From Pseudofrankia saprophytica (lineage in GTDB: Bacteria; Actinomycetota; Actinomycetes; Frankiales; Frankiaceae): 64,000 bases of DNA. Shown in pieces: positions 30,728 through 37,381 of this stretch. The notes below the pieces were generated by a model. It worked only from the letters and a program-made list of their open reading frames with translations. It was not told where the DNA came from and did not search any database. The DNA is taken from positions 3,477,671 through 3,541,670 of the forward strand of contig NZ_KI912266.1 in NCBI RefSeq assembly GCF_000235425.2, written 5' to 3'. A program made the translations under genes and the position numbers. Position 1 is the stretch's first letter, and every line of letters starts with the position of its first letter.

Positions 30728-30848
30728 GGGCCACATCCGCGCAGGTGTGTCTGGTCCGTCCCATTGCCAGGGGCGTGGTCTGGGCAGAACCTGGGCAGAG
30801 TCCGGGCACGCGAGATGAGCTCGGCGTGGCGTGGTGTGGGGCTGGTAG

Positions 30849-33800
30849 ATGGACGAGCGGGCAACGGTGCCGGGCCGGGATCCGTTGCTGGCTGCGCGGG
30901 TGACGGTGCTCCATGAGACGGAGCGGACCCGGGTCGTTCGGCTGACGTTCCCGGGCGGAAGCGTGATCCGCAAGGAGCTGCTGGGGCCCGGCGCGCGGCG
31001 GCGGCAGCGGCATGAGGTGGAGATCCTCGGTCAGCTGTCCGGTGTCGAGGGAGTCACGCAGTTGGCGACCGGGCTGCCGTCGTCCCCGGACTCGATCCTG
31101 CTGGCCGATGTCGGCGGTGTGGCGCTGTCCGAGCGGACTACTCCGCTGGATCCGGTCGAGCTGGTCGGACTGGCCGGGTCGCTGGGGCGGGCGATGGCGG
31201 AGATGCACCGGCGGGGGGTGGCGCATCGGGACGTCAATCCGGCGAACATCGTGATGACTGATGGCGGGGGAGCGCCATGCCTGGTCGATTTCTCGCTGGC
31301 CACCACGTTCGCGGTGGTTCAGCCGGAATTCGTACATCACAGCGAGATCGTGGGAACGGTGCCGTATTTGGCGCCGGAGCAGACTGGCCGGACTGGTTGT
31401 CACGTCGACCAGCGGGCCGATCTGTACGCGCTCGGGGCGACGCTGTACGAGCTGGCCACCGGGGCGCCGCCGTTCGGTGCCGGTGATCCTGTTCAGGTCA
31501 TTCACGACCATCTGACGCGGGTGCCGGCGCCGCCGTCGGCCGTGAACCCGGCGGTGCCGGCCGGCCTGTCGGCGATCATCATGCATCTGCTGGAGAAGGA
31601 GCCGGACGATCGCTACCAGAGCGCCGACGGACTGGTGCACGATCTCACCTTGGTACGTCGTGGCGCCTTCTTGGTGCATCCAGGCGAGCACGATTTCCCC
31701 GCACGGCCACTGACGCCATCCCGGTTGGCCGGGCGTGACCAGGAGATCCGCGAGCTGGGCGTGGCGTTCGCCGAGGCGATGGAGGGTCGCTGCCGCGGGC
31801 TGCTCGTCGGCGGTGCGCCGGGGGTGGGCAAGACGGCGCTGGTCAACGAACTGCGGCCGATCGTGGCCGGTGCCGACGGCTGGTTCGTGGCGGGCAAGTT
31901 CGACCAGTATCGCCGTGACCAGGAGTACGACGGGGGCTGGCAGGCGTTCCGGGCGCTGGGCCGGCTGTTGCTGGCCGAGCCCGAGCAATACCTGGCCGAG
32001 GTGCGGGAGCGGATACTGCTGGCGTTGGGACCCAGCGCCGGGCTGGCGACCGCCACCGTGCCGGAGCTGGCGGCGCTGCTGAAGGTCCCCCCGGATCCGG
32101 GCGATCCGATGACCGCGCAGGTGCGAGCGCTGCGCAACGGAGTCGAGGTCCTGCGCGCCGTCGCCTCCAGGAAACGGCCGGTGGTGTTCTTCGTCGACGA
32201 CCTGCAGTGGGCCGGGCGGACTCCGCTGGGCTTCGTCGATCTGATCCTCAGCGGCGCCGAACAGGTCGAGGGACTGCTGCTGGTCGGCGCCTACCGGGAC
32301 AAGGAGGTCGACCCGGCTCATCCGATGACGCCGATGCTCGCCCGCTGGCAGCGCCAGCCGGCCGGTCCGCGCATCGTGCGGCTGGGCAACCTGACCCCGG
32401 ACGGCCAGATGGCCATGGTTGCAGACCTGGTGCGCGTCGCGCCTGAGGCCGCCGCGGAGCTGGCGCGGATGATCGCGCCGTCGGCCGGTGGCAATCCGTA
32501 TGACACGCAGGAGCTGCTGAACTCCTTACGCCACGACGGTCTGCTCGTCGCTGGCGTCGGCGGGTGGCGATGGGATCGGGCGGTGCTGGATCGCCGGCTC
32601 GGGCGGGTGGATGTGGCCGGGATGCTGGCCGCTCGGGTGGCCGGGCTGCCGTCGGCGACCAGGCAGGTGTTGGCGGTGATGGCGTGTCTGGCGGGCCGGG
32701 TGGAGCTCGACCTGTTGGAGGTCGCGGCGGGGCTGGCCACGGAGGATGTCGAGCACCGGCTGGGCCCGGCGTTCGCCGCCGGCCTGCTGGTGCTCGAGCC
32801 TGGCGGCGGGCAGGGGGTGCGGTTCCACCACGACCGGACATGGGAGTCCGTGCTGGGCGCCCTCAGCCCGCGGCGGCGGCGTGGCCTGCGACTGCGGCTG
32901 GCCCGGCGGCTGGCCGAGCGGGGCGAGTACTTCGCGGTCGCGGCCGAGCAGTACCTGCACGTGGTCGACGTGGTGCGGGACGACGCCGAGCAGCGGCTGG
33001 TGGCCGGGCTGTTCCAGCAGGCCGCCGAGCAGGCGCGGCTGCTGAGCAACCATCCGCTGGTGGAGCGGTTCCTGACCGCGGCGGTGCCGCTGGTCGACCC
33101 GACCGACACCGACCAGCTGATCGAGGTCCGCACCGGCCGGCACGCCGCCCTGTACAGCCTGGGCCGGTTGGAGGAGGCGGACGAGGAATACCGGAACGTC
33201 AGTCGGCTGTGCACCCGCCCGGCGCAGCGCACGGCGGCCACCGTGCTGCAGGTGATCAGCCTGACCAACCGGGGCCGCGCCGAGGAGGCGGTCCGGCTCG
33301 GCGTGGACCAGCTGCGCGAGGTCGGTTTCGCCGTGCCGGACCGGGAGCGCCTCGACGCGGAGATCGACCGAAGACTCGACGCGGTCTACCGGTGGATCGA
33401 CCAGTCCAACGCATCCGACGACCTGTGCCGCCCGGAGGGCACCGACCGTTCGCGACTGGGCATCATCAAGCTCATCAACCGGCTCATCCCCGCGGCGTTC
33501 CTCTGCGACCGGCCGATGATGGCCTGGCTGACCGCGACGGCGCTGGAGATGTGGGCACGGGACGGACCGGATCCCGCCCTGATCGGCCCGACCAGCCACG
33601 CCTCCGTCCTGACCACGGCCCTCAGGCACGACTACCGCACCGGGCACCGCATCATGCGGCGCCTTCTCCAAGTCGGTCACGCACGCGGCTACGAACCGGA
33701 CATCTGGCAGATGCAGTTGATGTATGCGGTCTTTACCGGCCACTGGTTCGACCCGCTCGAGGACAACCTGTCCGCCGCGCGTCGCGCACTGGAGGGCCTG

Positions 33801-35765
33801 CTCCAGGGCGGCGACCTGCAGTACGCCTGCTGGACCCATGTCGTGCTGCTGCCGGACCTGCTGGACTGCGGCCCGTCGCTGGACGCCTATGTCGCCGGTG
33901 CCGACGAGGCGATGGCTATCGCCACACGCACCGGCAACGGATACGCCGAAGAGGTGTTCCGGCCCTGGCGCCAGCTGGCGAGGGTGCTGCGTGGCGAGGC
34001 CGTCGGCCAGGCGGCCGACGAGGCGGCCGAGCAGGGCCTGCTGGCCGCCAACCCGCTCGCCGCCGCCAACATGCACCTCACCCGGGCGCTCGCCGCCGCC
34101 ATCTTCGATCATTCGGCCGAGCTGGCCCGGCACACAGCGGCGGTGATGCGGTTGCTGCCGGTCCTCGAAGCGACCTACCTGATCGCGGTCGCGCGCGTGT
34201 TGCGGGCTCTGGCCCTGACCGGGCAGGCCCGGACGACGGAAGCGGGCCGGCGCGGGGCCGTGCTGGCCGAGCTGGACGAGGTGGTCGACTGGCTGGCCGC
34301 CCGCGCGGCCGACGCGCCGGTCAACTTCCTGCACCTGTTACGCCTGGTCGAGGCCGAACGGGCCTGGGCGGCAGGTGACTTCCGGGAGGCCGCGTACACC
34401 TATGACCTGGCACAACGTGAGGCCGCCACCCGCACACGCCCCTGGCACCGGGCACTGACCTTGGAACGCGCCGCACGGTTCCACCTCGCCCAGGGCATGG
34501 AGGAAACCGGCCGCATGCTGCTCGCCGCCGCCCGCCGCCAGTACGCCGACTGGGGCGCCACCGCCAAGGTCAGCCAGCTCGACTGGGCTTACCCGGCGCT
34601 GGCGGCCGAACCCGCCGGCGCCGAACCCGCTGCGCGAGCACCAGCCCAACCCACCACGGGCAGCCCCGCCGTCACCACCGGCACCATCGACCTGCTCGGC
34701 GTCGTCGCCGCCTCCCAGGCGCTGAGCTCCGAGACCAGCATCGAGGGCCTGCGCGCAAAGGTCGTGGGAATCCTGTCCGAGATGACCGGCGCCACCGGCG
34801 TCCACCTCCTCCTTCGCGACCAGGACGACAACGATGGCGGCTGGCTGGTACCCACCGACGACGGCGCCATCCCCCTGCGCGAGGCAGGCCTGCGCCGCCT
34901 GCTGCCGCCCTCGGTCGTCTGGTACACCGAACGCACCCACGAACCCACCGTCATCGCCGACGCCACCCGCGACGACCGATTCGCCCGCGACCCCTACCTC
35001 ACCAGCCTCGACCGCTGCTCCCTACTCGCCATCCCCCTCACGATCCGCGGCGAACTCAAAGCCATGCTCCTGCTGGAGAACCGAATGATCCGCGGCGCGT
35101 TCGCCACCAACCGCCTCGAACCGATCATGCTCATCGCCGGGCAGCTCGCCGTCTCCCTCGACCACGCCCAGGTCTACGCCTCCCTGGGGCGCAAAGTCGC
35201 CGAACGCACCCACCAACTCGCGGCCGCCAACCAACGCCTGGAACAACTGTCCATCACCGACCCCCTCACCGGACTGGCCAACCGACGACGCCTCGAAGAA
35301 GTCCTCCACGCCGAATGGCACCAGGCCTGCCATCAGCGCACCCCCCTCGCCGTCGCCATGACCGACATCGACTACTTCAAGCGCTACAACGACCACTACG
35401 GCCACACCGCCGGCGACCGCTGTCTCCGACTCGTTGCCGCATGCCTGGCCGACAACACCCGCGACACCGACCTCGCCGCCCGCTTCGGCGGCGAGGAGTT
35501 CGCCATCGTCATGCCCCACACCGACACCGACACCGCCGCCCGCGTCGCCCGAGACCTACGCGACGCCGTCGCCGCGCTCGCCGAACCACACCCCCTCGGC
35601 ATCGACCACATGATCACCCTCAGCATCGGCGTCGCCGCCACCATCCCCACCACCGACAATCAGCCACAAAGCCTGATCGATCTCGCCGACGTCGAGCTTT
35701 ATCGAGCCAAGCGTGCCGGACGCAACCGCGTCGAGGTAGCACACCCACACCCCGCGTCGCTATAG
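30849..35765 (+). CDS. Multidomain signalling protein: Ser/Thr kinase, AAA ATPase, helical repeats, GAF and GGDEF diguanylate cyclase
   Basis: A 1638-residue protein with no obvious membrane segment. Residues 20-275: protein kinase with Lys 42 (IRKEL), catalytic HRDVNPANI (Asp 128), DFS for DFG (Asp 147) and APEQTGR. Residues 290-560: AAA-type ATPase, Walker A GGAPGVGKT (321-329) and Walker B VVFFVDD (445-451). About 590-1260: helical TPR-like region. About 1296-1440: GAF sensor. The last 170 residues: GGDEF domain with active RFGGEEF (about 1546) and an I-site RDTD just before it. The kinase-AAA-GAF layout is known from cyanobacterial and actinobacterial sensors; ending in a c-di-GMP synthase is less common. 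Confidence 0.93.
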   Translation: MDERATVPGRDPLLAARVTVLHETERTRVVRLTFPGGSVIRKELLGPGARRRQRHEVEILGQLSGVEGVTQLATGLPSSPDSILLADVGGVALSERTTPLDPVELVGLAGSLGRAMAEMHRRGVAHRDVNPANIVMTDGGGAPCLVDFSLATTFAVVQPEFVHHSEIVGTVPYLAPEQTGRTGCHVDQRADLYALGATLYELATGAPPFGAGDPVQVIHDHLTRVPAPPSAVNPAVPAGLSAIIMHLLEKEPDDRYQSADGLVHDLTLVRRGAFLVHPGEHDFPARPLTPSRLAGRDQEIRELGVAFAEAMEGRCRGLLVGGAPGVGKTALVNELRPIVAGADGWFVAGKFDQYRRDQEYDGGWQAFRALGRLLLAEPEQYLAEVRERILLALGPSAGLATATVPELAALLKVPPDPGDPMTAQVRALRNGVEVLRAVASRKRPVVFFVDDLQWAGRTPLGFVDLILSGAEQVEGLLLVGAYRDKEVDPAHPMTPMLARWQRQPAGPRIVRLGNLTPDGQMAMVADLVRVAPEAAAELARMIAPSAGGNPYDTQELLNSLRHDGLLVAGVGGWRWDRAVLDRRLGRVDVAGMLAARVAGLPSATRQVLAVMACLAGRVELDLLEVAAGLATEDVEHRLGPAFAAGLLVLEPGGGQGVRFHHDRTWESVLGALSPRRRRGLRLRLARRLAERGEYFAVAAEQYLHVVDVVRDDAEQRLVAGLFQQAAEQARLLSNHPLVERFLTAAVPLVDPTDTDQLIEVRTGRHAALYSLGRLEEADEEYRNVSRLCTRPAQRTAATVLQVISLTNRGRAEEAVRLGVDQLREVGFAVPDRERLDAEIDRRLDAVYRWIDQSNASDDLCRPEGTDRSRLGIIKLINRLIPAAFLCDRPMMAWLTATALEMWARDGPDPALIGPTSHASVLTTALRHDYRTGHRIMRRLLQVGHARGYEPDIWQMQLMYAVFTGHWFDPLEDNLSAARRALEGLLQGGDLQYACWTHVVLLPDLLDCGPSLDAYVAGADEAMAIATRTGNGYAEEVFRPWRQLARVLRGEAVGQAADEAAEQGLLAANPLAAANMHLTRALAAAIFDHSAELARHTAAVMRLLPVLEATYLIAVARVLRALALTGQARTTEAGRRGAVLAELDEVVDWLAARAADAPVNFLHLLRLVEAERAWAAGDFREAAYTYDLAQREAATRTRPWHRALTLERAARFHLAQGMEETGRMLLAAARRQYADWGATAKVSQLDWAYPALAAEPAGAEPAARAPAQPTTGSPAVTTGTIDLLGVVAASQALSSETSIEGLRAKVVGILSEMTGATGVHLLLRDQDDNDGGWLVPTDDGAIPLREAGLRRLLPPSVVWYTERTHEPTVIADATRDDRFARDPYLTSLDRCSLLAIPLTIRGELKAMLLLENRMIRGAFATNRLEPIMLIAGQLAVSLDHAQVYASLGRKVAERTHQLAAANQRLEQLSITDPLTGLANRRRLEEVLHAEWHQACHQRTPLAVAMTDIDYFKRYNDHYGHTAGDRCLRLVAACLADNTRDTDLAARFGGEEFAIVMPHTDTDTAARVARDLRDAVAALAEPHPLGIDHMITLSIGVAATIPTTDNQPQSLIDLADVELYRAKRAGRNRVEVAHPHPASL

Positions 35766-35778
35766 CCGGCGGGGACCC

Positions 35779-36238: not shown

Positions 36239-37381
36239 ATGCGGGATGCAGTGATCGTGGCGGCGGTGCGCACGCCACTCGGCAAGCGCAACGGTGCCCT
36301 GTCGACCGTGCATCCGGTCACGCTGTCGGCTCATGTGCTGACCGAGCTCGCCGCCAGGAGCGGCGTCGATCCCGCCGAGATCGACGACGTCGCCTGGGGC
36401 GTCGTCGGGCAGGCCGGCGAGCAGGCCGCGGACCTCGCTCGCACCGCCGTGCTGGCCGCGGGCTGGCCGGAGTCGGTGACCGGCTACACGATCGACCGCC
36501 AGTGCGGGTCCTCGCAGCAGGCGGTGCACTCCGCGGCGGCCGGGCTGATCGCGGGACAGTACGACCTGGTCGTCGCGGGCGGCGTCGAGTCGATGTCACG
36601 GGTGCCGATGGGCTTCTCCACCCAGGGCAAGGACCCCTATGGCGAGCTGTATCTGGCCCGCTACGGGGCCTACCCGAACCAGGGGATCGGCGCGGAGATG
36701 ATCGCCGAGAGGTGGGGGTTCTCCCGGACCCAGCTCGACGAGTTCTCGATCGCCAGCCACGAGAAGGCCGCCTCGGCCCGGGCCGAGGGCCGGTTCGACG
36801 CCCAGATCGCTCCGGTCACGCTGGCGGACGGGACGGTCGTGGCGAGCGACGAGGGAATCCGGCCTGGCGGGACGGTCGAGGGTCTGGCGAAGCTGAAGCC
36901 CGCCTTCAAAGAGGACGGCGTGATCCACGCCGGGAACGCCTCACAGATCTCGGACGGTGCCGCGGCGCTGCTGTTGACGACCTCCGAGAAGGCCGGGGAG
37001 CTCGGCCTGACGCCGATCGCCAGGGTGCACACGGCGGTCCTCGCGGGCGCCGACCCGGTGATCATGCTTACCGCGCCGATTCCGGCGACGCAGAAGGCGC
37101 TGCGGCGGTCCGGGCTGACGATCGACGAGATCGGCGTCTACGAGGTCAACGAGGCGTTCGCGCCGGTGCCGCTGGCCTGGGTCGCGGAGATCGGCGCCGA
37201 TCCCAAGGCACTCAACCCGAACGGCGGCGCCATCGCCCTGGGGCATCCTCTAGGCGGCTCCGGGGCCCGCATCATGACGACGATGCTTCACCACATGCGG
37301 GACAATGGTGTCCGCTATGGCCTGCAGACAATGTGCGAAGGCGGCGGGCAGGCCAACGCCACCATCCTCGAACTGCTCTGA
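36239..37381 (+). CDS. Acetyl-CoA acetyltransferase / 3-ketoacyl-CoA thiolase
   Basis: A 380-residue complete thiolase. ATG 36239 follows an ACGGAG site; an earlier in-frame start lacks homology. The nucleophilic Cys is in DRQCGSSQQAV (about residue 86), the His in ALGHPLGGSGAR, and the second Cys in MCEGGGQ, so the enzyme should be active. It cleaves 3-ketoacyl-CoA to acetyl-CoA and a shortened acyl-CoA. Convergent with the alcohol dehydrogenase across a strong hairpin terminator. Confidence 0.93.
   Translation: MRDAVIVAAVRTPLGKRNGALSTVHPVTLSAHVLTELAARSGVDPAEIDDVAWGVVGQAGEQAADLARTAVLAAGWPESVTGYTIDRQCGSSQQAVHSAAAGLIAGQYDLVVAGGVESMSRVPMGFSTQGKDPYGELYLARYGAYPNQGIGAEMIAERWGFSRTQLDEFSIASHEKAASARAEGRFDAQIAPVTLADGTVVASDEGIRPGGTVEGLAKLKPAFKEDGVIHAGNASQISDGAAALLLTTSEKAGELGLTPIARVHTAVLAGADPVIMLTAPIPATQKALRRSGLTIDEIGVYEVNEAFAPVPLAWVAEIGADPKALNPNGGAIALGHPLGGSGARIMTTMLHHMRDNGVRYGLQTMCEGGGQANATILELL

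Follow-up and report, generated by a model that had tools for sequence, protein, structure and literature searches.

A predicted diguanylate cyclase of the Frankiaceae on an HstK-type kinase, AAA_16 and GAF frame

A single reading frame in the Frankia-like soil actinobacterium Pseudofrankia saprophytica joins a serine/threonine-kinase-like domain, an ATPase, a GAF domain and a GGDEF domain, which raises the question of what such a protein does, which of its parts are likely to be catalytic and whether the combination is its own. The window analysed here, i.e., the whole stretch of 64,000 nucleotides (contig NZ_KI912266.1, positions 3,477,671 to 3,541,670), comes from a genome of 9.98 Mb in two contigs. 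The four-domain protein of 1638 residues proposed in the first-pass annotation was borne out, as one frame with an ATG start and 1638 codons carries Pfam matches to Pkinase (residues 54-264, E 8e-20), AAA_16 (residues 292-479, E 1e-24), GAF (residues 1304-1437, E 4e-7) and GGDEF (residues 1469-1627, E 4e-49). Its parts are as follows.

30849..35765, + strand: whole gene (kinase, AAA_16, middle region, GAF, signalling helix, GGDEF), 1638 aa, orthologue L009 91% identical
30888..31664, + strand: protein-kinase-like domain, residues 14-272, from Pfam and an AF2 model resembling PknB
31722..32285, + strand: AAA_16 NTPase, residues 292-479, with Walker A GGAPGVGKT (321-329) and Walker B VVFFVDDLQW (445-454)
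32286..34703, + strand: middle region, residues 480-1285, no Pfam match
34758..35159, + strand: GAF domain, residues 1304-1437, the part most constrained against the orthologue
35106..35249, + strand: long signalling helix from GAF to GGDEF, residues about 1420-1467 (helix 136-183 of the model)
35253..35729, + strand: GGDEF domain, predicted diguanylate cyclase, residues 1469-1627

The frame is not a chance one, because a 91% identical orthologue is present in Pseudofrankia sp. BMG5.36, third-position GC is 0.88 and dN/dS against that orthologue is 0.43 over the whole gene (by part, the GAF domain has the lowest value, 0.13, against 0.37 for the kinase and 0.40 for the GGDEF domain). A search of genome contigs for close relatives returned only this strain, besides one GGDEF-only match. 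When the core, spanning AAA_16 and the whole middle region, was used as query, members were found in 17 of 35 Frankiaceae genomes: all eight of the window's genus, all six of a second genus (g6), 3/13 of a third (g2) and 0/8 across four further genera. The window genome itself holds three such genes, the two further copies being 69% and about 62% identical; all four parts do lie in one chain, but their joining is not unique. In all, 51 copies were aligned. The family has undergone a lineage-specific expansion, with many copies per genome in G017, G021 and G032, where 7-9 matched stretches were found per genome, some genes being split over stretches. Among Actinobacteria outside the Frankiaceae, the core query matched, in 197 genomes of the class, no more than short stretches in four genomes of one genus, weakly and at about 25-35% identity. 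No member was found in 396 genomes of the phylum, a weak test as only two candidates were scored per genome. The GGDEF-ended Frankiaceae copies form one clade (SH-aLRT 100) in a quick tree with some long branches.

The gene is flanked by an APH-family gene and a thiolase gene, without a response-regulator neighbour, the upstream gap being 121 nt and the gap to the thiolase ORF 473 nt if the latter starts at 36239. These gaps and neighbours make the monocistronic arrangement that had been claimed plausible; the terminator claimed with it was not supported, since a search for T-run terminators found 0 and the fold of the 3' stretch gave z = -1.16. When window positions 30742-35769 are set against 5895-10893 of L009, only the gene and about 106 bp upstream are common as one block. 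In this nearest relative the gene is separated from the end of the APH gene by about 5.3 kb of other genes, and the downstream side differs also. The locus was rearranged near both gene borders between the window and its nearest relative.

Upstream of 39 of the 51 family members lies a two-box element, GTTG-N16/17-GGGCAGACTGG (leave-one-out, at most 2 of 200 mononucleotide shuffles), a count which includes close orthologues, so that the 39 copies are not all independent. Its spacing is near-constant, usually about 55-70 nt 5' of the start (e.g., L032, L025, L072), and it resembles a -35/-10 pair, which would suggest a promoter. The window holds one copy.

30760..30792, + strand: degenerate copy of the promoter-like element GTTG-N16/17-GGGCAGACTGG, about 55-90 nt before the ATG

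This copy has a leave-one-out p of only 37/200, but with an in-sample matrix it outscores every other site in the window (19.1 vs 12.2). A wider regulon was considered and rejected: the genome holds 13 sites at two mismatches or fewer vs 4 in the control, and the GTTG box is correctly placed at only one of them, at paralogue L002. As far as the window genome was searched, the element occurs only at this gene family. That the protein has degenerated or arose as a chance fusion without function is very improbable; the altered gene content around the nearest relative and a copy number that differs among genomes would fit such a reading, but its presence in about half of the Frankiaceae genomes, the conservation of its active sites, a dN/dS below 1 and the element upstream of most copies argue against it.

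The C-terminal part is the most readily interpreted. A model of residues 1285-1638 (mean pLDDT 91) has a long GAF-to-GGDEF helix, which fits the S-helix theme (PMC1592074), and a WspR-like GGDEF domain (target-normalised TM 0.90-0.92 to that of WspR, at about 43% identity). Two short motifs of this domain need to be located.

35460..35471, + strand: I-site RDTD, residues 1538-1541, five residues before GGEEF (DDTH in orthologue L013)
35487..35501, + strand: GGEEF active-site motif, residues 1547-1551

In every one of the 49 copies that extend this far, the Mg-binding Asp and the guanine-binding Asn/Asp (D1506, N1514, D1523) are intact, as are GGEEF and the C-terminal Lys; the other two of the 51 are truncated or broken at GGDEF. 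The cyclase of the window protein looks fully competent. Product feedback had also been proposed, and its signature, RxxD at the I-site distance, is indeed present in the window copy; as a general trait it did not hold, for RxxD occurs in 25/49 copies, is lacking from the nearest orthologue and changed state a minimum of 8 times on the core tree, an approximate count.

The frame on which this cyclase is carried also occurs with other outputs. A tblastn search of plasmids with the core gave 246 records, the best of which cover it almost end to end at 24-30% identity and are annotated as AAA family ATPase, ATP-binding sensor histidine kinase or trifunctional serine/threonine-protein kinase/ATP-binding protein/sensor histidine kinase. 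The frame was also present in 27/299 genomes of the phylum around a Hyphomicrobium genome. No GGDEF end was seen in those checked of these 27 genomes, nor among the plasmid matches listed; the C-termini of the relatives are HisKA/HATPase, HisKA_3/HATPase (e.g., L114, L138, L151, L153) or a class III nucleotide cyclase. In L115, L116, L142 and L155, a class III adenylate/guanylate cyclase domain follows the GAF domain on the same frame. Among the relatives found, in a sampling of plasmids, actinobacterial genomes and the phylum around the Hyphomicrobium genome, the GGDEF end was seen in the Frankiaceae clade only. The kinase-AAA_16-middle-GAF core of HstK-type proteins is recognisable in the window protein (about 1000 aa aligned, 24-31% identity, E down to 3e-83), but where these have a histidine kinase it has GGDEF.

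It is probable, then, that the gene encodes a cytosolic, lineage-expanded Frankiaceae diguanylate cyclase on the frame of HstK and the "trifunctional" kinases, in which the histidine-kinase output was exchanged for GGDEF. A response-regulator gene adjoins 13 of 18 annotated relatives of the histidine-kinase (HK) type (L047, L048, L078, L081, L082, L083, L086, L087, L088, L090, L091, L092, L095) and there is none beside the window gene; we infer that with the swap a phosphorelay gave way to direct output through a second messenger.

What the N-terminal half contributes is harder to judge. The first-pass annotation held that all active-site motifs were visible, and those it named are present (HRDVNPAN at 126-133, DFS at 147-149, GGAPGVGKT at 321-329, FVDD at 448-451, RDTD at 1538-1541, and RFGGEEF), but the Lys of HRDxK is Asn130 and there is no glycine-rich loop. 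In the AAA_16 domain, the Lys and Thr of Walker A and the first Asp of Walker B are kept in 51/51 copies. The roughly 800 residues separating it from the GAF domain, which went unmentioned in that annotation, matched no Pfam model and may be TPR-like only by analogy with a Clostridium thermocellum protein considered below. Two motifs of the kinase-like domain are central to what follows.

31224..31247, + strand: catalytic loop HRDVNPAN, residues 126-133, from the sequence motif and family alignment
31287..31295, + strand: DFS at the DFG position, residues 147-149 (residue 149 over 51 copies: A 44, S 3, T 2, M 1, G 1)

The Hanks-type fold is evident from the Pkinase match and from an AF2 model of residues 8-500 (mean pLDDT 85), the kinase part of which resembles Mycobacterium tuberculosis PknB, the best structural matches having a target-normalised TM of about 0.7-0.8. 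A VAIK-type Lys (K42), E56, the catalytic Asp and Asn (D128, N133), and the DFG Asp (D147) are all present, as are the APE and DLYALG motifs, whilst the glycine loop, the HRDxK Lys and the DFG Gly are not (LHETERTRVVRL, HRDVN and DFS in their places); nor is a glycine loop visible in the Frankiaceae clade or most relatives (e.g., KIYESSNSLVYR in Nostoc). With these residues in place and a PknB-like model, a fully active Ser/Thr kinase, which would phosphorylate its own GAF-GGDEF half or partners and directly set the c-di-GMP output, is possible but on balance doubtful, given the three departures just named and what is seen in the family alignment. There, across 51 Frankiaceae copies, no variation is seen at K42, N133, D147 or the APE Glu, and E56 is Glu in 50. 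At the HRD Asp, however, 42 copies have D and 9 have N, paralogue L002 being one with HRN, although the cyclase is kept; the HRDxK position is N in 30, S in 12, C in 8 and H in 1, and never Lys. The core tree requires at least seven changes at the D/N position and six at the DFG position, approximate counts as the tree has open forks. DFS, which had been called an oddity, is not one against this background, with DFA in 44/51 Frankiaceae copies and DFG or GFG elsewhere in the frame. Replacing the Asp that serves as catalytic base by Asn is a standard means of inactivating kinases (compare CaMKII D136N, PDB 5hu3). Because HRD has become HRN by at least seven changes, active phosphorylation is doubtful as a property of the family; our reading is that nucleotide binding would be under selection and phosphotransfer dispensable in part of it.

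More distant relatives point the same way, GFG replacing DFG in 14 of 21 HK-type relatives, many of them proteobacterial, whose alignment is unreliable at the Lys column. L046, L078, L079, L081 and other proteobacterial relatives combine GFG with no clear VAIK Lys. The kinase part of such "trifunctional serine/threonine-protein kinase" proteins looks like a pseudokinase, and the name is probably misleading. That the domain is an ATP-binding pseudokinase in the window copy too, serving only for nucleotide sensing or as a scaffold, has a slightly less than even chance: ATP-site residues are invariant while the catalytic Asp varies, and a DFG Gly occurs in 1/51 copies, but D128 is kept by the window copy and 41 others, and kinase dN/dS indicates a constraint no weaker than the protein average. 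A more specific proposal, that the kinase fold is an adenine-nucleotide gauge, in which an ATP-binding pseudokinase and an AAA_16 switch gate lineage-specific c-di-GMP synthases and catalysis has been lost repeatedly among same-genome paralogues, is put forward as a speculative and rather unlikely one.

Most likely, the protein is a diguanylate cyclase gated by its GAF domain and signalling helix together with an ATP-dependent N-terminal half, the kinase being either active or merely ATP-binding. Because ATP-site and Walker residues are invariant, the kinase-like domain and AAA_16 NTPase may bind nucleotide and, with the middle region, act as an input or assembly switch. Architecture and model suggest that the GAF domain and helix would relay an intracellular signal to the GGDEF domain, which, since its active site is complete, would dimerise and synthesise c-di-GMP; I-site feedback may act in the window copy and would be optional across the family. 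Against this predicted cyclase weigh a moderate overall dN/dS and the chance that kinase, AAA and cyclase parts are coupled in a manner that the sequence does not show. In the genome as a whole, GGDEF is matched 27 times, EAL 19 times and BldD_C four times; the best BldD_C match has RGD-X8-RYED and fits the c-di-GMP signature RXD-X8-RXXD of BldD (PMC4151990). A c-di-GMP output would be meaningful in such a cell and may be read by effectors such as this BldD homologue, whose link to the window protein is one of co-occurrence; with about 24 other GGDEF matches in the genome, the window protein may matter little.

The joining of two usually separate signalling systems is not new. A literature search for bacterial pseudokinases on the kinase-AAA_16-GAF frame found nothing. 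A C. thermocellum protein of 1826 aa with a kinase, 6 TPR and GGDEF was reported in 2005 (PMC1262709). By its description it is alike in its N-terminal Ser/Thr-kinase-like domain, long middle, C-terminal GGDEF and similar size; it differs in belonging to another phylum, and AAA and GAF parts are unmentioned in that report. The frame itself is known with a histidine-kinase output in cyanobacteria (PMC2176072) and, by domain order, in fungi. The cyanobacterial HstK/cbSTKIII dual kinases share the order of kinase, AAA_16, middle region and GAF, and their core is homologous to the window protein (about 24-25% identity over 1000 aa), but they end in a histidine kinase and usually have a response-regulator neighbour. 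The proteobacterial proteins named "trifunctional" by NCBI are homologous along the frame at about 26-31% identity, again with a histidine-kinase output, and their kinase domain is often without the VAIK Lys and DFG Asp. WspR and GAF-GGDEF cyclases such as DcsBis (PDB 4zmu) share the GGDEF fold, the active site and the GAF-helix-GGDEF layout, but lack the kinase and ATPase parts. What would be added here, though it may possibly be in print elsewhere, is an expanded GGDEF-ended clade in the Frankiaceae, a single signalling frame on which four outputs (HisKA, HisKA_3, class III cyclase and GGDEF) are interchangeable, the repeated loss of the catalytic Asp and a common upstream element. Candida albicans Chk1p and Schizosaccharomyces pombe Mak2/Mak3 have the order S_TKc, AAA_16, GAF in one long protein (PMC9069115), a likeness of domain order alone in eukaryotic proteins with a HisK-REC output, and the same paper notes that the S_TKc domain of Chk1 occurs in diguanylate cyclases. 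As natural paralogues in the same genome permit comparison of HRD with HRN kinases, and c-di-GMP is an easily measured output, the Frankiaceae proteins offer a route to the role of the kinase-AAA half in HstK and in the fungal Chk1-type proteins.
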